From the NCBI GenBank assembly GCA_020724485.1, contig DYGW01000011.1:1-35556 (forward strand): a stretch of DNA of 35,556 nucleotides, in the 5' to 3' direction. Shown here one piece after another: positions 2,523 to 11,760 of this stretch; position 1 is the first letter of the stretch; every line of letters begins with the position of its first letter. Below the pieces are notes generated by a model that searched no databases, was not told the origin of the DNA, and saw nothing but the letters and a program-made list of their open reading frames with translations. Origin of the DNA: Thermoflexus sp. GTDB lineage: Bacteria > Chloroflexota > Anaerolineae > Aggregatilineales > Aggregatilineaceae. A program made the translations under genes and the position numbers.

Positions 2523-2548
2523 GCCGGACGGCTAGCCCGGCGGTTTTT
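2523..2548 (+). terminator. Terminator after mltG
   Basis: GCCGG (2523-2527) pairs with CCGGC (2537-2541), followed by GG and TTTTT (2544-2548). A competing hairpin GCCGT/ACGGC lies at 2518-2532. The signal overlaps the last codons of the convergent gene ending at 2532. Confidence 0.55.
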
Positions 2549-3050
2549 CCCCTGCCGCGCCGCCGATCTGCTCCATCTGGCCCCACTGGCTGGCTTCGCG
2601 GCGCAGCACTTCCTCTGTCTGGTAGACAAGCAGCGGGAAGTAGCGGTTGTAGTCGCCTGACCCCAGGTAATCCTCATCCGGCATGGCCAGCCGCGCCTGC
2701 TGCAACGCCAGCCACGTATCCTCGTAAATGGACGCCTGGCGCTGCCACTGGTACAGCGCGCGGAAGGCCGATACCGCAGCGGCAAATGCGGGAAGCAGCG
2801 CCGTCACGAAGGCGAAGAAGGCTTTGTCGGCAATGACCGAATACGACGAGATGACCGTCGAAATACCCATCAGGCCCGCCGACACCCACAGCATCTTGTC
2901 CGAGTTGAAGGTGAATTCGGCGATGCGGCGGCGGTAGAAGCCATCCTGCAGGTTGATGCGCTGCTGGATGTAAAGCTGGGCGCGCAGCCGAGCTTCTTCC
3001 TCCGTGAACAGGGGCGGTGCCTGGGGCGGGGTGCTGTCTTGACTGCTCAT
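2532..3050 (-). CDS. SLATT/DUF4231-like two-helix membrane protein (second of pair)
   Basis: A 172-residue protein with a soluble, charged N-terminus, two adjacent hydrophobic helices at about 53-73 and 77-99, and a cytoplasmic helical tail. The order is typical of the DUF4231/SLATT superfamily: a first helix with AQLYIQQRI, a transmembrane hairpin, then an amphipathic helix with YEDTWLALQQARL. SLATT proteins are thought to be membrane effectors, often encoded beside nucleotide-sensing or nucleotide-making partners in conflict systems. Here the immediate partner is a second SLATT-like gene 30 bases upstream. GAGGA lies 7 bases before the ATG. Its function here is not established; the family call is from topology and motif memory. 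Confidence 0.65.
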   Translation of the reverse strand: MSSQDSTPPQAPPLFTEEEARLRAQLYIQQRINLQDGFYRRRIAEFTFNSDKMLWVSAGLMGISTVISSYSVIADKAFFAFVTALLPAFAAAVSAFRALYQWQRQASIYEDTWLALQQARLAMPDEDYLGSGDYNRYFPLLVYQTEEVLRREASQWGQMEQIGGAAGEKPPG

Positions 3051-3080
3051 GGTTGTGTCCTCGCTGCCTGGGTTGCCGGG

Positions 3081-3890
3081 TCAGTTATCGCCGGGCGGGG
3101 TGCTATCGCGGCGGCGCGGAGCGCGGGATCGGGCGGGCGGTTCTGGCTCAGGCGCTGGCTCGGTGGGCGGGGTAGGGGCCGCTGTGTCCGCGCTGGCCGG
3201 GCGCTCGGCGATGCGCGTCTCGCGCAGCACCTCGATCACCTTGCCGCGCATCCGCTGCACCCGCTCGCGGTCGCTGGGGCTGTCGAAGGGGGTCTGGCGG
3301 GCCAGGAAGAGGAAGTAGGTCGAGCGCAGGATTTCGGCCTGAACGCGCGCCTTGTACCAGCGTTTCTGCGGCGTCTGGTTGGCGTCGAGGAAAGACACAG
3401 TGGCGGCGATGCCGCTCACCAGCGCAGTGAGAAAGCCGAGCATCTCTGTCCACTGCAGCGAGCCGACGATGGTCCCGGCCTGGCCGGTCCAGCCCTGCGC
3501 GTAGAGGAAGACGTTGACCGCGGCCAGAGCCGTCGTCAGGAAGGCGGCCAGGATGAACGCCCACTGGTACTGGTAGTAGCGATTCTGGAAGAACCGGGCC
3601 TGCTGGTTCATGCGCCAGAAATGGGGCAGCAGGTGCTGGTCTAGCTCGCGGATGTCGGCGGAAAGCTCAGCGGAGAGCGGCCCATCAACCAGCGCGGGCG
3701 CGATGAACCCCTCGGCGATCAGGTCGCGCGCGTACTGGTCGTCTGGCGGGCGCGTCCATTCGCGCCCGATGTGGCGCGACGGCACGCGCCGGATGAAGAA
3801 CCACTGGGGCCGTTCTTCTTCGCGCTGCGCCAACGCCTTCATGCTTGAGGTGGCGCGTTTGTCGAGCTTGGAATCGTGCTGCTGTGCCAT
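3081..3890 (-). CDS. SLATT/DUF4231-like two-helix membrane protein (first of pair)
   Basis: A 269-residue protein. A charged N-terminal region includes EEERPQWFFIRRVPSRHIGREW. Then come a helix with RFFQNRYYQYQW (99-110), membrane helices at about 110-131 and 149-169, and a helix with RWYKARVQAEILRSTYFLFLA. The C-terminal 40 residues are Pro/Glu/Arg-rich and probably disordered. The FFQNRYYQYQW segment before a two-helix hairpin is characteristic of DUF4231. It is larger than its downstream neighbour and not a recent duplicate, so the two may form a heteromeric complex. GAGGG lies close to the ATG. It is the third gene of a probable four-gene operon. Confidence 0.7.
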   Translation of the reverse strand: MAQQHDSKLDKRATSSMKALAQREEERPQWFFIRRVPSRHIGREWTRPPDDQYARDLIAEGFIAPALVDGPLSAELSADIRELDQHLLPHFWRMNQQARFFQNRYYQYQWAFILAAFLTTALAAVNVFLYAQGWTGQAGTIVGSLQWTEMLGFLTALVSGIAATVSFLDANQTPQKRWYKARVQAEILRSTYFLFLARQTPFDSPSDRERVQRMRGKVIEVLRETRIAERPASADTAAPTPPTEPAPEPEPPARSRAPRRRDSTPPGDN

Positions 3891-3940
3891 AGGCCCTCAC
3901 ACTCTGCAAGCAACTCTACGGACTGGCGGTCGGCGCGAGC

Positions 3941-4927
3941 TTATACAGCGGCTGGGGGCGCTTCCCCCGCGTAGACGGCGGCGATGTCCCAGTCGGGCAG
4001 GGACTCGTCCTCGATGCAAACGGCGAGCAGGAGCGTGCGCACTGGCCACTGGGCCGGCTCGAAATCGTGCTGCATGAGCGCCACGACGTGCGGGAAGCGG
4101 CGGGCGGCGATGCGCTCGCCGATGGTCACGCGCAGCCGGATGGTGGGCGGCTCGTCGGGCAGCGGCTGGATCAGCCCGGTCAGCGCCCGCTTGAGCGCGT
4201 GCAGGGCCGCGCGCAGCCGGTCATCCATCGTCACAGTCCAGGCGGCGACGTACTGCCGCTCGCCAACGACTTCGGCGTGCACCCCGGCGATCTCAACGGG
4301 CAGCGGCAGGCGCGCGCGCGCCCAGCGTTCGAGCGCGGCGTCCAGGGCGTCAAGGTCGGGCGTGAAGAAGCGCGGCGTCAGCGGGATGCCCGGCGGCGGC
4401 ATGTCCTCCACGTCGCCGGTCGCGCGTAGCTCCAGGACTTGCGCGCCCAGTTCGGGCGGCAGACCGAGCAGCACCTGGTAGGTCAAGCCGACGGCGGGCG
4501 GGGCGGCGGGAATCTGCGGGCCGATGTCCCGCGCGACAGGCGTCGGGGGCGGGCTGGGCGCTACCGCCCGGACGGGAACGGAGGTGGCCGGCGGCGGCAG
4601 GGCATCGTCGAGCATATCGAGCAGGTCTTCGGTCGCGGTGTCGAGTGCGTCTTCGGCGCGGGTGGAGCCTGGCTCGGCGGGCAGGGCGTCGTCCAGCGCG
4701 GCCAGGAAGTCGTCGGTGTCCTCGGCCAGCGAGACGGGCGGCGTGGCGAAGGCAGCGAAAGGCCGGTCTTCGGGCGCTGGCGCGGGGTAGCGCGGCGGCA
4801 GGGCGTCGTCCAGCGCGGCCAGGTCAATTGGCTCCGGCTCGTCCGCGCCTGTCCACAGCATGTCGTCGAAGTCCTCGTAGGACACGTCGTCGGCTGGCTC
4901 GTCGTCGGGCTGGTAGTAGTCGGTCAT
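3941..4927 (-). CDS. Acidic repeat protein with degenerate 2H-phosphoesterase-like domain
   Basis: A 328-residue protein starting at the ATG preceded by GAGGG at 6 bases; an upstream in-frame ATG at 4939 is less likely. The first 120 residues are very acidic and Pro-rich and contain three repeats around LAALDDALP, LAALDDALP and LDMLDDALP (37-43, 75-82, 103-111). Residues 148-305 resemble the 2'-5' RNA ligase/2H fold, with IPLTPRFF (181-188), a helix pair, LRVTIG (265-270) and FEPAQWPVRTLLL (289-301). The His of both HxT motifs appears replaced (Pro182, Arg266), so catalysis is doubtful. It may be a binding or scaffold protein. I would not assign a reaction. Confidence 0.55.
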   Translation of the reverse strand: MTDYYQPDDEPADDVSYEDFDDMLWTGADEPEPIDLAALDDALPPRYPAPAPEDRPFAAFATPPVSLAEDTDDFLAALDDALPAEPGSTRAEDALDTATEDLLDMLDDALPPPATSVPVRAVAPSPPPTPVARDIGPQIPAAPPAVGLTYQVLLGLPPELGAQVLELRATGDVEDMPPPGIPLTPRFFTPDLDALDAALERWARARLPLPVEIAGVHAEVVGERQYVAAWTVTMDDRLRAALHALKRALTGLIQPLPDEPPTIRLRVTIGERIAARRFPHVVALMQHDFEPAQWPVRTLLLAVCIEDESLPDWDIAAVYAGEAPPAAV

Positions 4928-4956
4928 GGTGTCCCTCATGCCCGCGTGGGGCGACC

Positions 4957-5814
4957 TCAGCGCGTCAAGTCCCCGAACGAAACAAGATGGATGCCTTCGG
5001 CCCGCACGCATTCATGGGTCGCGGCGTGGGTCAGGTGGAGAATCTCCTCTTGGCGCTTGTCGCGATAGCCGCTGAGGCCCAGTTCGTCGTCCACGTACCC
5101 CGGATGACACATCAGTTCAGTGATGCCATCGTCGGGCAGATTAGTCAGGATGACCAGCAGATCGCCGAGCGTGGCCGTCTTGTCGAAGTAGCCCATCTCG
5201 AAGCGCGCCGGCCAGAAGGGGGCCGGGCCTGCGGCGAGCACCGCTTGCAGACGCTCGACCAGGGGCAGGGCCACGCTCGCGTCGAACTCCGGCAGGATGC
5301 GCGCCAACGCCGCCGCTGCCATGTCGGGGGGCAGATCAGCCATGCCCGCGCGCATGGGGATGCCGAAGCCCGCCGCGATCTCCAGCATAGCGCGCAGCGC
5401 GTCCGGGTGCAGGTAGGCGGCGTGGTGGTGGGAGTCCAGATGATCGGGCGGGCGACCGGCCAGGCTGAGGAAGCGATCCACTTGGGCGGCGATCTCGCGT
5501 TGCAGGTGATCTGGCTCGAAGCGGTTCATCTGAGCGGGCCACGTGCTGATGTGGACGAACTCTCCCCCGTCGGCCAGCAGCGAGCGCACCGTCTCTGGCG
5601 CGGACACAGGGCAACCGGCGGTCAGCGTGACGTGCAGGCCAATGCCCAGGTCGGGGGCTTCGGCCAGGGCACGCTCCAAGCCTGGCGCGGCGGCGGGATA
5701 GTTGACCATGACCGTCGTGGAGGTGACGATGCCGCGCAGGTGCGCTTCGAGAATGCCCCGGTTGATGCCGGGCGACCGCCCAAAATCATCAGCGTTGACG
5801 ATGAGTTGTTTCAT
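4957..5814 (-). CDS. ChbG/YdjC-family carbohydrate deacetylase
   Basis: A 285-residue cytoplasmic hydrolase of the YdjC/ChbG family, metal-dependent deacetylases acting on N-acetylated oligosaccharides such as diacetylchitobiose. The start at MKQLIVNADDFG is chosen because the family begins there; a longer reading frame to 5997 runs into a repeat. Metal-site motifs are visible: NADDFG (Asp9, Asp10), GLHVTL (His61) and HLDSHHH (129-131). A conserved CHPGY follows near the end. It heads a minus-strand cluster, 29 bases before the acidic 2H-like gene. The actual substrate is unknown. It could recycle peptidoglycan- or glycan-derived GlcNAc units. Confidence 0.85.
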   Translation of the reverse strand: MKQLIVNADDFGRSPGINRGILEAHLRGIVTSTTVMVNYPAAAPGLERALAEAPDLGIGLHVTLTAGCPVSAPETVRSLLADGGEFVHISTWPAQMNRFEPDHLQREIAAQVDRFLSLAGRPPDHLDSHHHAAYLHPDALRAMLEIAAGFGIPMRAGMADLPPDMAAAALARILPEFDASVALPLVERLQAVLAAGPAPFWPARFEMGYFDKTATLGDLLVILTNLPDDGITELMCHPGYVDDELGLSGYRDKRQEEILHLTHAATHECVRAEGIHLVSFGDLTR

Positions 5815-5877
5815 GTGCCCCGTCCGTAGAGTGAGTCGTCGGTGATCAGTGATCGGATTGAGGTCTGTCACGGCGCG

Positions 5878-5970
5878 CTGAGCACTCAGCAGACTGAAAA
5901 CTAACAACCGAGAACAGACAACTGACAACCAATAACCAACAACCAAGAACCAACTACCAACCACCAACAC
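5878..5970. repeat. Heptanucleotide tandem repeat block (STRR-like)
   Basis: Eleven consecutive degenerate 7-base units run without interruption from 5894 to 5970. They drift from CTGAAAA, CTAACAA and CTGACAA to CCAATAA, CCAACAA, CCAAGAA and CCAACTA. Two more units (CTGAGCA, CTCAGCA) lie at 5878-5891. The block fills most of the divergent gap 5815-6107 between the two operons and disrupts any upstream extension of the ChbG gene. Related blocks occur at 22664, 27780, 27843 and 27902. Confidence 0.8.
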
Positions 5971-6107
5971 CGCCAGCCGTGTGTCTGCTCGAATCATAGC
6001 TTACACCCCGCCGGGGCGAAAGCCAACTTCGACCTGGGCGGCAATTTGTGTTACCCTACGGCGCTGTGAGCAGTAACGTGTGGCCTGAAAGGAAAGAGGA
6101 CAGACTC

Positions 6108-7700
6108 ATGACCGATTCCGTGCGCGCCGCCGTCGAGCGCCATACGGCGCAGATTCGGGCGCTCTATGTAGACTACACCCAGAAAGAGTGGATCGCGGCG
6201 ACCACCGGCACCGCCCAGGCGCTCAATGACGCCGCTAAGGCGCACCGGGCGTGGATGCGCTTCCAGGCCGATGCTGAGGCCTACGCGCAGTACAAGCAGT
6301 GGGACGAAGAGGGCGCGGCGGGCGACGACGCGCACCTGGCGCGCATGGTGCGCGTGCTGCATTTCGGGTTCGGGGCGGGGCAGCGCGACCCGGCGACGAT
6401 TGACGAGATGAGCGATCTGACGAAAGCGCTCAGCGATGCCTACACCAACTTCCGCGCCGAGGTCAACGGCCAGCGCCTGACCGCCAACGCCATCAGCGAG
6501 GTGCTGCGCGGCGAGAACGATTCCCAGGCGCGGCGCGCGGCGTGGGAAGCCAGCAAGCAGATCGGCCCGCGCGTCGCGGACCAGATTCGCCGCCTGGCCG
6601 AGCTGCGCAACATGGCCGCGCAGCGTATGGGCTTCGCCAACTTCCACCGCATGAGCCTGACCTTCGACGAGCTTGACGCGGACTGGCTGTACGCCATGCT
6701 CGACGAGCTGGCCGTCAAGACCGAGGCGGCCTACCGCAGCGCCAAAGCCGAGCTTGACGCCGAGCTGAGCGCGCGCTTTGGCGTGCCAGTGGACGACCTG
6801 ATGCCCTGGCACTACGCCGACCCGTTCGCCCAGGACGCGCCGATCCTGGCCGATTACGACTACGACGCGCTGTTCGTCGGGCGCGCACTTGAGCCGCTGA
6901 GCGTCGCCACCTACGACGGGCTGGGCATGGACGTGCGCGACATCCTGCGGCGCAGCGATCTCTACGAGCGTGAGGGCAAAGACCAGCACGCCTTCTGCAC
7001 GCACATTGACCGCGAGGGCGACGTGCGCATCCTGTGCAACCTCCAACCCAACCTGCGCTGGATGGAGACGCTGCTGCACGAGCTAGGGCACGCCGTGTAC
7101 GACAAGTATATCCCCCAAGACCTGCCCTGGCTGTTGCGGACGATCCCGCACATCCTGACCACTGAGGCGATGGCTATGCTGATGGGCGCGGAGACGCTCG
7201 ACCCGGAGTGGCACGAGCGCGTGCTGGGCGCGGACGCGGCGGAGGCGGCGCGGGCCGGGACGGCGGGCTACCGGCGGCTGCGCCTGCAAGAACTGATCTT
7301 CGCCCGCTGGGTGCTGGTCGTGGTGAACTTCGAGCGTGCGCTCTACGAAGACCCGTCGCGCGATCTGGACGCGCTGTGGTGGGAGCTGGTGCAGCGTTAC
7401 CAACTGCTCAACAAGCCGGACGGGCGCGAGAAGCTGCCCGACTGGGCGACAAAATACCATATCGCGCTGGCTCCGGCCTACTACCAGAACTACCTGCTGG
7501 GGCGCATGATGTCCTTCCAGTGGGAAGACTGGCTGCGCAAGCACGCCGGTGGCATCGTCGGGCGGCGGGCGGCTGGCGAGTTCTTCTGCGAGCGTATCTT
7601 CGCCGTTGGCAACACCATGCCCTGGAATGACGGGTTGGAGCACGCAACCGGCGAGCGGCTCAACCCCGATTACTTCGTCGAGAAGTGCGCCCAATTCTGA
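6108..7700 (+). CDS. M3/M2-like zinc metallopeptidase (oligoendopeptidase type)
   Basis: A 530-residue cytoplasmic peptidase of the gluzincin clan, related to M3 oligoendopeptidase F and M2. The zinc motif HELGH is at 324-328, with the third ligand Glu353 in TTEAMAM 25 residues downstream, the usual spacing for this clan. The rest is all-helical, as in the family. There is no signal peptide, so the likely role is cutting cytoplasmic oligopeptides. The start is set by AGAGGA 7 bases before ATG 6108; a longer frame from 6048 lacks such a site. It leads a four-gene plus-strand run; the TIR-like gene begins 6 bases after its stop. Confidence 0.85.
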   Translation: MTDSVRAAVERHTAQIRALYVDYTQKEWIAATTGTAQALNDAAKAHRAWMRFQADAEAYAQYKQWDEEGAAGDDAHLARMVRVLHFGFGAGQRDPATIDEMSDLTKALSDAYTNFRAEVNGQRLTANAISEVLRGENDSQARRAAWEASKQIGPRVADQIRRLAELRNMAAQRMGFANFHRMSLTFDELDADWLYAMLDELAVKTEAAYRSAKAELDAELSARFGVPVDDLMPWHYADPFAQDAPILADYDYDALFVGRALEPLSVATYDGLGMDVRDILRRSDLYEREGKDQHAFCTHIDREGDVRILCNLQPNLRWMETLLHELGHAVYDKYIPQDLPWLLRTIPHILTTEAMAMLMGAETLDPEWHERVLGADAAEAARAGTAGYRRLRLQELIFARWVLVVVNFERALYEDPSRDLDALWWELVQRYQLLNKPDGREKLPDWATKYHIALAPAYYQNYLLGRMMSFQWEDWLRKHAGGIVGRRAAGEFFCERIFAVGNTMPWNDGLEHATGERLNPDYFVEKCAQF

Positions 7701-7706
7701 CGCGGG

Positions 7707-8246
7707 ATGCAATACCTATACGTCAGCTACCCCGATCACGACTACGACTTCGCCCACCGCCTGGTTGACGACCTGCAGGCGACGGGCTATGTTGTGTTCG
7801 TGGACGCGGTCGCGGCGCGGGGGACGATGGCCTGGGCCGCCGAGACACGCCACGCCATTCGCGCGGCGGGGGCGGTGCTGATGATCCTCGATCCGGCGCG
7901 CGGACGGCGCGTCGGGATGCGTCACGAGGGTGTCCTGGCCGGGCGGCGGCGCACGCCCACTTTCGTGCTGCTGCGCTCCTCCGGTGACCTGCCACGCTAC
8001 CTGGGGCGGGCGACGGTGATTGACTTCTCGGCGGAGTACGACGCGGCGCTGGCCGACCTGCTGGGGGGGCTGCCCTCTGCGGCGGAGCTTCTGGCCGCCG
8101 AAGCGCCGCCGCGCCGCCCGCTGCGTCGCCCGCCGCGCCGCCGCGACTCGCGCTGGCGTGAGCGGTTGGTCTGGACGCTGGCCGTCGTCGCAGTGCTCGC
8201 CCTGTGTTCCCTGGCAGCTATCGCGCTCGGCCTCATTCCGGTGTAG
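7707..8246 (+). CDS. TIR-like domain protein with C-terminal membrane anchor
   Basis: A 179-residue protein. Residues 2-122 match the bacterial TIR pattern: LYVSYPDHDYDFAHRLVDDL (strand A and helix A), YVVFVDAVAARGTMAW (BB loop region), AIRAAGAVLMILDP, RHEGVLAGRRRTPTFVLL and VIDFSAEYDAALADLL. Glu74 falls where the catalytic Glu of NAD-cleaving TIR domains lies, but the Trp usual four residues earlier is Gly70. An Arg/Pro-rich linker leads to one membrane helix at 154-176, giving a cytoplasmic TIR domain tethered at the membrane. NADase activity cannot be judged by eye; a protein-interaction role is equally possible. The tight spacing to both neighbours suggests co-transcription. Confidence 0.75.
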   Translation: MQYLYVSYPDHDYDFAHRLVDDLQATGYVVFVDAVAARGTMAWAAETRHAIRAAGAVLMILDPARGRRVGMRHEGVLAGRRRTPTFVLLRSSGDLPRYLGRATVIDFSAEYDAALADLLGGLPSAAELLAAEAPPRRPLRRPPRRRDSRWRERLVWTLAVVAVLALCSLAAIALGLIPV

Positions 8247-8313
8247 GATCGAATTAGGCGGGAGATTGGCGCTCGCCGAGCCGCACGCGAGACAGGGAGA
8301 ATACGGGAAGCCT

Positions 8314-10092
8314 ATGGATCGCTCAGTGCCCAAGACCGGAAGCGAAGAGATCGCGCTCTACATCCGCACCTACTACTCGCTGCTGCGCTCCAGCCGCGCC
8401 GTGCACCTCGACGCGCTGGTTGAGACGCACCTGACGGTGAACTCATCCCTGCACACGCGGGCGCGCGCGCCGATGCCCGACGCGGCGGCGCTGTTCTACG
8501 CGGCGATGCGCCTGCCGCCGTGCATGGCCGATGTTGAGCTGGTAGTGATGGGCCAGACCGACCGCGTCTTCCACGATCACGGGTTCGCGCACGTGGGCGA
8601 GTGGGAGCGCGTGATCGCGCCCGCCCGCCGCCGGCGCATGGCCTTCGACGGGAAGCAGACGCTGGCCGTCTACGTCGCCAGCGGCTCGGACATTGACGAC
8701 CTGATCCCGATCCTGGTCGCCTACCAGATCGAATGGAACAAGCTGCACGACTTGCTGCAATCGGTGGCGGCCCAGGCGAGCCTGGCCGCCTTCAGCGCCG
8801 ATTCCTCGCTGAGCCGCACGGCGGAGCTAGCCCGCGCGCTGGGCATGACGGCGGATGATCTGAGCCGCTTGCAGGACGCCTGGGGCAAAGACACGATCGC
8901 CACGCTGAAGAAGATCGCGCGCAGCCCCAAGCGCCTGGCGGTGCAACTGCTGGCGGGCACCTACATCAACTACCAGCGCGCCACGTCCGACTGGTGGTTC
9001 AACGTGCGCCAGCACGTCGAGCACGTCCGCCTGCAGGATCGCCCGGTCTACTTCATTTCCAGCAACGTGCACGCTGTCCCTAACCTGCTGAGCGGATTCG
9101 CGCTGCGCGAAGAGGAGCGTATCTTCGAGTTCGTGGAGAAGGCGGGTGACCCCGGCCTGACCGCCGAATACGACTATGTGCGCGTGCGCGACGAACTGAA
9201 CAATAAGAACAATTTCCTCTATTATGCGCTGCGGCGCTACACCAGCCTGGCCGATGTGGACGCGCGCCGCCGCCAGGCCGAGGCCGAGGCCGGGATCAGC
9301 CGCGTGCCCAGCCTGCACGGCTTCGACATCGAAGCGCAGGTCATCGAGCTAAACAAGCTCGACCCGGCGCGCATGGACTCGCGCATCGTCCCTGCCAGCG
9401 CCAGCGACATGGCCCTGCTGCGCCACAGCGACGCGCTGATCGTCAACATTGACTACCCGCTGGGCATGGCCGCCTACCACGTGCTGGCCAAGATCAGCCA
9501 GTATGTGACGCGGATGCAGGGCATCTACGTAATCGGCAAGGCGGCGACGCTCAACGCGCGAGTGGGCGACGTGATGATCGCCAACGTGGTCTACGACGAG
9601 CACAGCCAGAACTCGTACCTCTTCGGCAACTGCTTCAGCGCGTCCGATGTCATCCCCTACCTGACGCTGAACAGCGTGCTCGACAACCAGAAAGTGGTCA
9701 GCGTGCGCGGGACGTTCCTGCAGAACGTCCAGTACATGGACGTGTTCTACCGCGAGGGCTACACGATTGTGGAGATGGAGTCCGGGCCGTACCTGTCGGC
9801 GGTCTACGAGATGGTGCGCGCCCAGCGCCACCCGGTGGACGAGATCGTCAACCTGTACATCGCGCCGTTCGATCTTGGCTTCCTGCACTACGCCAGCGAC
9901 ACGCCGCGCAGCAAAGGGCGCACGCTGGGCGAGGGCAGCCTGAGCTACCTGGGCGCGGAGCCGACCTACGCGACGGCCATCGCCACGCTGCGGCGTATCT
10001 TCAAGCAGGAGATCGAGCGCCTGCGCGGGCTGCCGCCGTCCGTCACTGGCTCGCCGGCAGAACTGGAGGTGACGACTGATGCAGGTGAGTGA
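8314..10092 (+). CDS. Uncharacterised protein with nucleoside-phosphorylase-like C-terminal half
   Basis: A 592-residue soluble protein. The N-terminal 340 residues are mostly helical and I recognise no named domain. Residues 360-565 resemble the phosphorylase/nucleosidase fold: YVIGKAATLNARVGDVMIA (405-423) is like the GTAGGLNP..GDLV segment of purine nucleoside phosphorylases, and TIVEMESGPYLSAVYEM (484-500) is like the EMExxAL segment that binds the nucleoside ribose. It may belong to a family I recall as DUF6909, unverified. The in-frame stretch from 8020 is shadow of the TIR gene; ATG 8314 begins the real protein. It follows the TIR gene by 67 bases and overlaps the nitroreductase start. 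A purine or NAD-derived substrate is a reasonable guess only. Confidence 0.7.
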   Translation: MDRSVPKTGSEEIALYIRTYYSLLRSSRAVHLDALVETHLTVNSSLHTRARAPMPDAAALFYAAMRLPPCMADVELVVMGQTDRVFHDHGFAHVGEWERVIAPARRRRMAFDGKQTLAVYVASGSDIDDLIPILVAYQIEWNKLHDLLQSVAAQASLAAFSADSSLSRTAELARALGMTADDLSRLQDAWGKDTIATLKKIARSPKRLAVQLLAGTYINYQRATSDWWFNVRQHVEHVRLQDRPVYFISSNVHAVPNLLSGFALREEERIFEFVEKAGDPGLTAEYDYVRVRDELNNKNNFLYYALRRYTSLADVDARRRQAEAEAGISRVPSLHGFDIEAQVIELNKLDPARMDSRIVPASASDMALLRHSDALIVNIDYPLGMAAYHVLAKISQYVTRMQGIYVIGKAATLNARVGDVMIANVVYDEHSQNSYLFGNCFSASDVIPYLTLNSVLDNQKVVSVRGTFLQNVQYMDVFYREGYTIVEMESGPYLSAVYEMVRAQRHPVDEIVNLYIAPFDLGFLHYASDTPRSKGRTLGEGSLSYLGAEPTYATAIATLRRIFKQEIERLRGLPPSVTGSPAELEVTTDAGE

Positions 10093-10600
10093 AGCGATCA
10101 AGACCAACCGCGCCGTGCGCCAGTTCGCTGAGCGCCCCGTCGCGCCGGAGGATATTGCGCGCATCCTCAACGCGGGGCGGCTGTCTGGCTCGGCCAAGAA
10201 CCGCCAGCCCTGGACGTTCGTCGTCGTCACGGTGCGCGAGACGCTGCGCGCGCTGGCGGCGTGCGGTCCCTGGTGCGGGCACGCGGCGGGGGCAGCGTTC
10301 GCCGTCGTGCTGGTGGTGGATGATCTGGAGACTCCTCCGACGCTGACCACGCCGTTCGACCTGGGGCGGGCCAGCCAGAACATGATTCTGGCCGCGTGGG
10401 AACTGGGCATCGGCTCGTGCATGGGCACGATCTACGAGCCAGAGGCAGCCCGCCGGGCGCTCGGCATCCCCGAAGGCAAAGATGTGCCCTGGCTGATCTC
10501 GTTCGGCTACCCGCACCCCGACGACGACCCGCGCACGCGCCCGCCGCGTGCCGGTGGGCGGCGCGCGCTGGATGAGGTGGTGCGCTGGGAGCGGTGGTGA
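10079..10600 (+). CDS. Nitroreductase-family FMN oxidoreductase
   Basis: A 173-residue member of the nitroreductase superfamily, FMN-dependent NAD(P)H oxidoreductases acting as homodimers. The N-terminus, with KTNRAVRQFAERPV (8-21), holds the phosphate-binding Arg residues. LSGSAKNRQPWTFVVV follows the usual SARNxQPW pattern. FDLGRASQNMILAAWELGIGSCMGTI is the dimer-core helix, and IPEGKDVPWLISFGYP is the typical C-terminal strand. It is short for the family. Its start overlaps the end of the previous gene by 14 bases and has an excellent GGAGGTGA 6 bases upstream, so coupled translation is likely. The substrate is not predictable. Confidence 0.85.
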   Translation: MQVSEAIKTNRAVRQFAERPVAPEDIARILNAGRLSGSAKNRQPWTFVVVTVRETLRALAACGPWCGHAAGAAFAVVLVVDDLETPPTLTTPFDLGRASQNMILAAWELGIGSCMGTIYEPEAARRALGIPEGKDVPWLISFGYPHPDDDPRTRPPRAGGRRALDEVVRWERW

Positions 10601-10654
10601 GGACTCCCGGTAGGGGATATTCAGCGGTGTCCGGGAGCACGGGTCGGGTGCAAC

Positions 10655-10700
10655 GCCCCTTCCCCTGACCCCCTCCCTGGCTCTGCCGGGGAGGGGGAAG
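10655..10700. repeat. Dispersed palindromic repeat, diverged copy
   Basis: CCCCTTCCCCTGACCCCCTC is followed by a CCGGGGAGGGGGAAGT segment, matching the left and inner parts of the repeat at 18677-18744. It occupies the 179-base gap between the convergent nitroreductase and fmt genes and may serve as a transcription end. Confidence 0.6.
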
Positions 10701-10779
10701 TACCGCACCGGTGAGGCGTGCGCAGCCAGGCTTAACTTGCTGCGCCCCTTTGTTTTTCCACACGCGCCAGGAATTGCCG

Positions 10780-11760
10780 TCAGCCTAATCGGCTACCCAC
10801 GAAATCCGGTGCGCCGTTGCGAAATGCCTCCGCGCTGAGCGCCTGGCGGCCCTCAAGTTGCAGGCGCAGCGGCAGATAGACTCCGCTCCCAGTGCCGACG
10901 GCCAGCGGTCCCAGCCCGTCCAGCGGGGTGCCGTCGGTGCTGGCGACCTGTCCCGGCGCGAGGCCGAGATTGGCCGTCGAGGGGAAGCCGGCCAGCACCT
11001 TGAGCCGGCGACCATTCCAGGTGGTAAAGGTGCCGGGCCAGGGCGTGAAGGCGCGCACGTGGCGGTCAATGGCGATGGCAGAGGCCGACCAGTCCAGCGC
11101 CCCGTCTTCGCGCCGGAGTTGGGGGGCGTGGGTGATCAGGGCGGAGTTGTCCGGCTGAGGGTGGGGGGAGATGCTGCCGCTGAGCAGCCATTCCAGGGTG
11201 TGGAGGAGCAGTTGCGCGCCCAGGGGGGCCAGCTTGTCGTGCAGCGTCTGGCCCGTCTCCGCCGGATCAATCGGAATCGAGTCCTGGAGCAAGATGGGGC
11301 CGCTATCCAGCCCGGCATCCATGATCATGGTGGTGATGCCCGTGCAGCGGTCGCCAGCGCGGATGGCCGCCTGGATGGGAGCCGCGCCGCGCCAGCGGGG
11401 TAGCAGCGAGGCGTGCACGTTGATCGGGGCGATGCGCGGCAGGTCCAGCACGGGCTGGCGGAGAATCTGGCCGAAAGCGACGACCACTAGGAAGTCCGGT
11501 GTCCAGGCGCGAAGCTGGTCGAGGGCGGCTGGTTCGTGTGCTTGGAGCGGCTGGATGACGGGCAGACTGGCGCGCAGGGCAACCTGCTTGACCGGCGACA
11601 TCTGCACGCGCTGGCCGCGCCCGGCAGGGCGATCTGGCTGGGTGACGACGCCGGCGACCTCGAAGTGGGACGTGTCGAGCAGGGCGCGCAGCGCGGGCAC
11701 GGCGAAGTCTGGCGTGCCCATAAACACGATGCGAGTGACGGGCCGCGCGTCTCTGTCCAT
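10780..11760 (-). CDS. fmt: Methionyl-tRNA formyltransferase
   Basis: A 326-residue enzyme that transfers a formyl group from 10-formyltetrahydrofolate to Met-tRNA(fMet) for translation initiation. The N-terminal catalytic domain begins RIVFMGTPDFAVPAL. It has PDRPAGRGQ, the catalytic-site segment NVHASLLPRWRGAAPI (Asn114, His116) and the Asp152 region MDAGLDSGPIL. The C-terminal tRNA-binding domain spans about 210-326. The ATG at 11760 is preferred to an in-frame ATG at 11793 because GGGGAG lies at suitable distance before it. The usual def partner is not adjacent. It is divergent from the tRNA-His gene. Confidence 0.95.
   Translation of the reverse strand: MDRDARPVTRIVFMGTPDFAVPALRALLDTSHFEVAGVVTQPDRPAGRGQRVQMSPVKQVALRASLPVIQPLQAHEPAALDQLRAWTPDFLVVVAFGQILRQPVLDLPRIAPINVHASLLPRWRGAAPIQAAIRAGDRCTGITTMIMDAGLDSGPILLQDSIPIDPAETGQTLHDKLAPLGAQLLLHTLEWLLSGSISPHPQPDNSALITHAPQLRREDGALDWSASAIAIDRHVRAFTPWPGTFTTWNGRRLKVLAGFPSTANLGLAPGQVASTDGTPLDGLGPLAVGTGSGVYLPLRLQLEGRQALSAEAFRNGAPDFVGSRLG

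Follow-up and report, generated by a model that had tools for sequence, protein, structure and literature searches.

The DUF6909 protein encoded beside a TIR gene in Chloroflexota: a candidate purine N-ribosidase with a modelled nucleoside phosphorylase fold

The gene run and its TIR protein

The window analyzed here, a 35,556-nucleotide stretch of the Thermoflexus sp. contig DYGW01000011.1, harbors four genes placed head to tail on the + strand (6108-10600), which were confirmed to encode a metallopeptidase, a TIR protein, a DUF6909 protein and a nitroreductase (Table 1). The first product of the run is an M3/M2-type zinc metallopeptidase. A previous sequence-only reading had described a TIR-like membrane protein paired with a phosphorylase-like one, with a peptidase before and a nitroreductase after them, and both flanking genes were recovered by Pfam on the same strand. 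The run is compact: the TIR gene begins 6 bp after the peptidase gene ends, DUF6909 follows the TIR stop by 67 bp, and the nitroreductase gene overlaps the end of DUF6909 by 14 bp. Since, in addition to this tight spacing, no terminator-like site was found on the + strand between the four genes, they likely form one transcription unit, as the sequence-only reading had stated outright for the pair.

Table 1. Genes, domains and proposed active-site residues in the gene run of the window
Feature	Position	Strand	Basis
First gene: M3/M2-type metallopeptidase of 530 aa	6108..7700	+	Pfam Peptidase_M2 67 bits, Peptidase_M3 53 bits
TIR protein, 179 aa	7707..8246	+	Pfam TIR_2
TIR domain, residues 1-129; then Arg-rich linker; predicted C-terminal tail-anchor helix, about residues 147-173			
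DUF6909 protein, 592 aa	8314..10092	+	Pfam DUF6909
DUF6909 N-terminal domain, residues 1-222, mostly helical	8314..8979	+	Pfam, model, 141-sequence alignment
DUF6909 C-terminal NP-I domain (modelled), residues 223-567	8980..10014	+	VIA Z 19.8; Foldseek E 2.7e-6
N251, proposed counterpart of Amn N205	9064..9066	+	Invariant 141/141; inferred from motif and strand position
K409 (motif GKAATLN), aligned with H of Amn GHCGGLR	9538..9540	+	Invariant 141/141; hhalign register
M488-E489, counterparts of Amn M404-E405 (ribose and base)	9775..9780	+	Invariant 141/141; hhalign register
D529 (motif YASDTP), candidate general acid, matching Amn D428 (motif SDKP)	9898..9900	+	Invariant 141/141; hhalign register
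Nitroreductase-family FMN protein, 173 aa	10079..10600	+	Pfam Nitroreductase 76.7 bits

The TIR-like domain and the membrane tether proposed for the product of 7707-8246 were both borne out. The domain scored 46.2 bits with Pfam TIR_2 (PF13676), above the cut-off of 28 bits, and its AlphaFold2 model (pLDDT 86.5) was superposed by VIA on the TIR domains of SPARTA (Z 15.6) and SARM1 (Z 15.2) over about 120 residues. A hydrophobic C-terminal helix preceded by an Arg-rich linker was present in all 11 orthologues that could be read to the stop codon, which suggests a tail-anchored protein whose TIR domain faces the cytoplasm. Moreover, E74 was invariant across 15 orthologues and aligned with the glutamate of the BabAgo/TIR-APAZ (SPARTA) TIR, and its distance from the domain start agreed with that of catalytic glutamates such as E279 of TcpO, in a construct that starts at residue 204 (PMC10022894). 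The protein thus carries the catalytic glutamate that TIR NADases hold in helix C, and NAD cleavage by it is possible.

Although the fold and the glutamate at its usual position are shared with SPARTA TIR-APAZ proteins and SARM1, the TIR domain studied here is stand-alone with a tail anchor, and is associated with neither APAZ/Argonaute nor SAM/ARM domains. None of the companions of the known TIR defence systems Thoeris, SPARTA and TIR-STING (ThsA, Argonaute, STING) was found, nor any system-level PADLOC match; this tool returned only weak matches to the TIR part, of at most 28 bits, and for the neighbours nothing beyond a 15-bit Avs1a match. In this search, none of the defence families scored convincingly. 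TIR-domain matches are abundant in genomes of the window's GTDB family, reaching 13 per genome when the window TIR was used as query.

Fold and candidate active site of the DUF6909 protein

The 592-aa protein is a full-length member of the Pfam family DUF6909 (PF21850), matched with 722.3 bits against a gathering cut-off of 27, from profile position 2 to 535 of 535 and over residues 33-564. The sequence-only reading missed that the protein is a single Pfam family from end to end. This family has no assigned function, and the literature searched contains no paper naming it. A PDB sequence search with a profile of 62 DUF6909 relatives returned nothing significant, whereas the AlphaFold2 model built from the alignment of these relatives (pLDDT 87.2, pTM 0.87) had AMP nucleosidase as its top Foldseek match (E 2.7e-6), and residues 223-567 of the model were superposed by VIA-align on a DeoD-type purine nucleoside phosphorylase (PNP) with Z 19.8 and an rmsd of 2.6 over 214 residues. 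The modelled C-terminal domain therefore has the NP-I (purine nucleoside phosphorylase) fold, which upholds the nucleoside-phosphorylase-like character first noticed in the bare sequence. Both motifs quoted in favor of a phosphorylase-like C-terminal half (residues 360-565) are present, but the domain is larger, starting at residue 223. Residues 1-222, in turn, matched no known domain by sequence, and the structural matches found by VIA covered residues 223-567 only; among 141 sequences, R105-R107, D129, E140 and K143 of this N-terminal domain were invariant.

AMP nucleosidase (Amn, E. coli b1982; PDB 2guw, 7uwq and 1t8s) resembles the DUF6909 protein in having an N-terminal domain before the NP-I domain. 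It differs in its AMNp_N domain (PF10423), which had no match in the 62 DUF6909 members, as was also the case for PNP_UDP_1 (PF01048) at E values up to 10. When the C-terminal domains of DUF6909 and Amn were compared by hhalign, an E value of 0.05 was obtained, which is not significant (the Amn/DeoD control gave 1e-4), and no alignment was returned for the N-terminal domains. Sequence-level proof of kinship with Amn was accordingly abandoned, since the phmmer, profile and hhalign searches were all non-significant.

The mapping of residues onto Amn rests on motifs, on the hhalign register and on strand order in the predicted structure. In the Klebsiella enzyme, N205, W383, M404, E405 and D428 surround the base and the sugar, R381 and K436 lie at the phosphate, and distant Amn homologues keep only M404, E405 and D428 (PMC9584410). 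The hhalign register paired, in order, the DUF6909 motifs GKAATLN, GDVMI, VEMES and SDTP with the Amn motifs GHCGGLR, GDYVL, IDMES and SDKP, and in the model VEMES lies where a strand passes into a helix, and SDTP where a strand ends. N251, K409, M488, E489 and D529 were invariant in all 141 DUF6909 sequences, including two distant Persicobacter copies of about 24% identity. By this register the protein would retain the Met-Glu ribose motif and the Asp general acid that mark NP-I enzymes (M488, E489 and D529), as well as invariant counterparts of the Amn base and sugar residues N205, M404, E405 and D428, the first of these being matched to N251 by motif only. For the Amn phosphate residues R381 and K436 the likeness is less clear: R381 has no counterpart, the invariant DUF6909 motif GTFLQN being devoid of Arg, and the basic loop that follows D529 is variable among DUF6909 sequences.

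The same comparison bears on whether the protein could be a true phosphorylase, using inorganic phosphate to split purine nucleosides, rather than a hydrolase. The top VIA matches were DeoD-type PNPs (PF01048), with which it shares the fold and the Met-Glu and Asp motifs. Identity to them is about 9-11%, and the DUF6909 protein has an extra N-terminal domain of 222 aa. Against a phosphorylase, the phosphate-binding motif is changed: the DeoD phosphate residues R87 and S90 would fall, by motif register, on a hydrophobic residue and on K409. Moreover, many of the xanthine-dehydrogenase-linked loci described below already have an orthodox PNP downstream, and a phosphorylase activity is considered unlikely.

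Conservation of the pair and distribution of DUF6909

Within the window's GTDB family, the peptidase, TIR, DUF6909 and nitroreductase genes were found together in most loci. The whole segment is, however, syntenic: the YdjC gene and the 2'-5'-RNA-ligase-like gene, both on the other strand, and the downstream fmt gene were kept about as often. Because the adjacency of the unrelated YdjC and fmt genes is equally conserved, that of TIR and DUF6909 carries little weight as functional evidence. The RNA-ligase-like gene (3941-5011, - strand) adjoins the YdjC-like deacetylase gene and encodes a C-terminal part with a weak match (23 bits, below the cut-off) preceded by a long acidic N-terminal part; it is poorly conserved (30-45%), albeit syntenic. 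Further along the - strand (2532-3890), two adjacent genes encode 2TM proteins matching SLATT_1 (48.5 bits) and DUF4231/SLATT_3 (50/33 bits). SLATT-type 2TM proteins are linked to nucleotide-signalling conflict systems. This couple was kept in part of the family (loci L035, L039 and L043), and PF18181 was found in 13 of its 18 genomes.

The sequence-only reading had proposed that the TIR and DUF6909 genes form an NAD/nucleoside-handling or immune module. In such a module, the TIR protein would cleave NAD or make an ADP-ribose product and the DUF6909 protein would act on this product or serve as effector. In most of the family the two genes are neighbours on one strand, the TIR protein retains an NADase-type glutamate and a fold close to that of NADase TIRs, and the SLATT_1 and DUF4231/SLATT_3 genes lie upstream. 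The proposal did not survive wider comparison: in other families, no relative of the window TIR was found near DUF6909 in any of 67 loci, searched up to 10 kb. The link is thus confined to one GTDB family, inside which YdjC, fmt and other unrelated genes are block-conserved to the same extent. Even in that family, a sister genome (G016) kept YdjC, DUF6909 and the nitroreductase after losing the peptidase and TIR genes, and in another genome (G010) a 1.2-kb insert splits TIR from DUF6909. DUF6909 mostly occurs without a TIR of the window type, no PADLOC system was recognized, and phages and viral contigs yielded no relative. The immune or NAD module was therefore dropped; the gene pair is probably no new immune module, and a functional partnership of the two proteins is very improbable. 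This case illustrates how two genes kept together in a single family may look like an immune module and yet fail to be supported as one when more genomes are compared.

Within the window's GTDB family 17 of 18 genomes carry DUF6909; it was also present in 33 of 61 relatives and in 140 of 400 Chloroflexota genomes (about a third), nearly always in one copy, and a pattern scan of GTDB genomes yielded 573 confirmed DUF6909 stretches. AMNp_N, the Pfam mark of classical Amn, was absent from the 400 genomes of the phylum. A phage or plasmid origin was also evaluated and rejected, since searches of phage records and viral contigs yielded no DUF6909 relative and the only plasmid matches were two Persicobacter replicons; DUF6909 is a single-copy chromosomal gene. 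The protein encoded by these two plasmids of Bacteroidota (L161, positions 3251-4939, and L162) is a distant DUF6909 member of full length, and its gene in L161 immediately follows that of a SAM-dependent methyltransferase. Another record, titled Pleurocapsa minor, a cyanobacterium (JAHHHY010000001.1), carries a Chloroflexota-type operon of DUF6909 and xanthine dehydrogenase genes; its DUF6909 falls among those of Chloroflexota in the tree and the record is probably a mislabelled MAG.

Molybdenum hydroxylase operons, proposed function and probable relocation

Outside the window's GTDB family, a xanthine-dehydrogenase-type subunit gene was located at most three genes from DUF6909 in 50 of the 64 evaluable loci, and on both sides of it in 41. 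The usual order, with genes named by Pfam and NCBIfam, was XdhC, metallophosphoesterase, FAD/2Fe-2S subunit, small membrane protein, DUF6909, molybdopterin subunit, YqeB and YqeC-MocA, often with an orthodox PNP gene downstream and with the F420 genes CofC and CofD (by Pfam) and CofE (by eye) upstream. YqeB and YqeC are markers of selenium-dependent molybdenum hydroxylases, and on uric acid and xanthine C. difficile grows less well or not at all once yqeB is deleted (PMC11448449). The hydroxylase scores lay below the NCBIfam cut-offs, and the family models do not fix the substrate. An orthologue of the large (molybdopterin) subunit was found in all 33 DUF6909-positive relatives and in 23 of 28 negative ones, a modest association (Fisher p 0.017, uncorrected for kinship), and the hydroxylase clearly occurs without DUF6909 in many genomes. 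A universal link to xanthine dehydrogenase was rejected, since no such gene lies beside DUF6909 in other classes of the phylum, where the family has no fixed partner and its neighbours include, for example, genes for a DNA methylase, a HAD hydrolase and an Nramp transporter.

The location of DUF6909 between hydroxylase subunit genes and beside maturation genes, together with its unusual invariant N-terminal motif (R105-R107/D129/E140/K143), could also indicate a protein in which the NP-I fold has been reused to help with the assembly, regulation or cofactor handling of the molybdenum hydroxylase. The strict retention of the catalytic Met, Glu and Asp of NP-I enzymes argues against such a helper, as do the many genomes in which the hydroxylase does without DUF6909 and the classes in which DUF6909 lies away from the hydroxylase, and this role seems quite unlikely.

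With somewhat greater confidence than doubt, the DUF6909 protein is proposed to be an Amn/PNP-like purine N-ribosidase of purine catabolism that was relocated beside an unrelated TIR gene. According to this proposal, built on the model and on the invariant residues, the two-domain protein would split a purine nucleotide or nucleoside at its N-ribosidic bond: E489 and M488 would hold the ribose and the base, the departing purine would receive a proton at N7 from D529, C1' would be attacked by water or phosphate, and basic residues (K409, the loop after D529 and perhaps R105-R107) would handle a phosphate. In the ancestral site, inside the operon of a xanthine-dehydrogenase-type molybdenum hydroxylase, the freed purine bases would feed the hydroxylase. 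A narrower version, in which DUF6909 is an unrecognised AMP-nucleosidase-like branch with its own N-terminal domain, degrading purine nucleotides and so feeding a YqeB/YqeC-type and possibly selenium-dependent molybdenum hydroxylase, is put forward tentatively; if it is true, some Chloroflexota have a direct route from nucleotides to purine oxidation. Fold, candidate active site and operon context make DUF6909 a testable purine N-ribosidase, and this reading may help to explain how substrate is supplied to YqeB/YqeC-type hydroxylases. Its value would lie in giving a likely chemistry and pathway to a DUF family.

In related families DUF6909 is found inside the YqeB/YqeC-type (selenium-dependent) molybdenum hydroxylase clusters of purine catabolism, whereas the window's own genome keeps this operon on another contig with DUF6909 absent from its usual slot, in the order metallophosphoesterase, FAD/2Fe-2S subunit, small membrane protein, molybdopterin subunit, YqeB, YqeC-MocA and PNP. 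The same gap at the DUF6909 position was observed in a second genome (G003). In the tree, whose backbone is unresolved, the sequences of the window's family grouped (93/100) with that of locus L033, also from this family and on a contig that begins inside the DUF6909 gene, among mostly xanthine-dehydrogenase-linked lineages, with a second linked group further out. This nesting, together with the linked outer group, favors loss of the linkage in the window's family, and the empty slot in the operon of its own genome indicates that the gene probably moved. Relocation of DUF6909 out of the operon is thus the simpler reading and the probable one; the gene would have landed between the TIR and nitroreductase genes, the TIR being a separate, lineage-specific neighbour. 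The operon of the window's genome spans positions 2637-11631 of its contig (G000:C140, locus L158) and, with its YqeB gene, YqeC-MocA fusion and PNP gene, is possibly a selenium-dependent molybdenum hydroxylase cluster.
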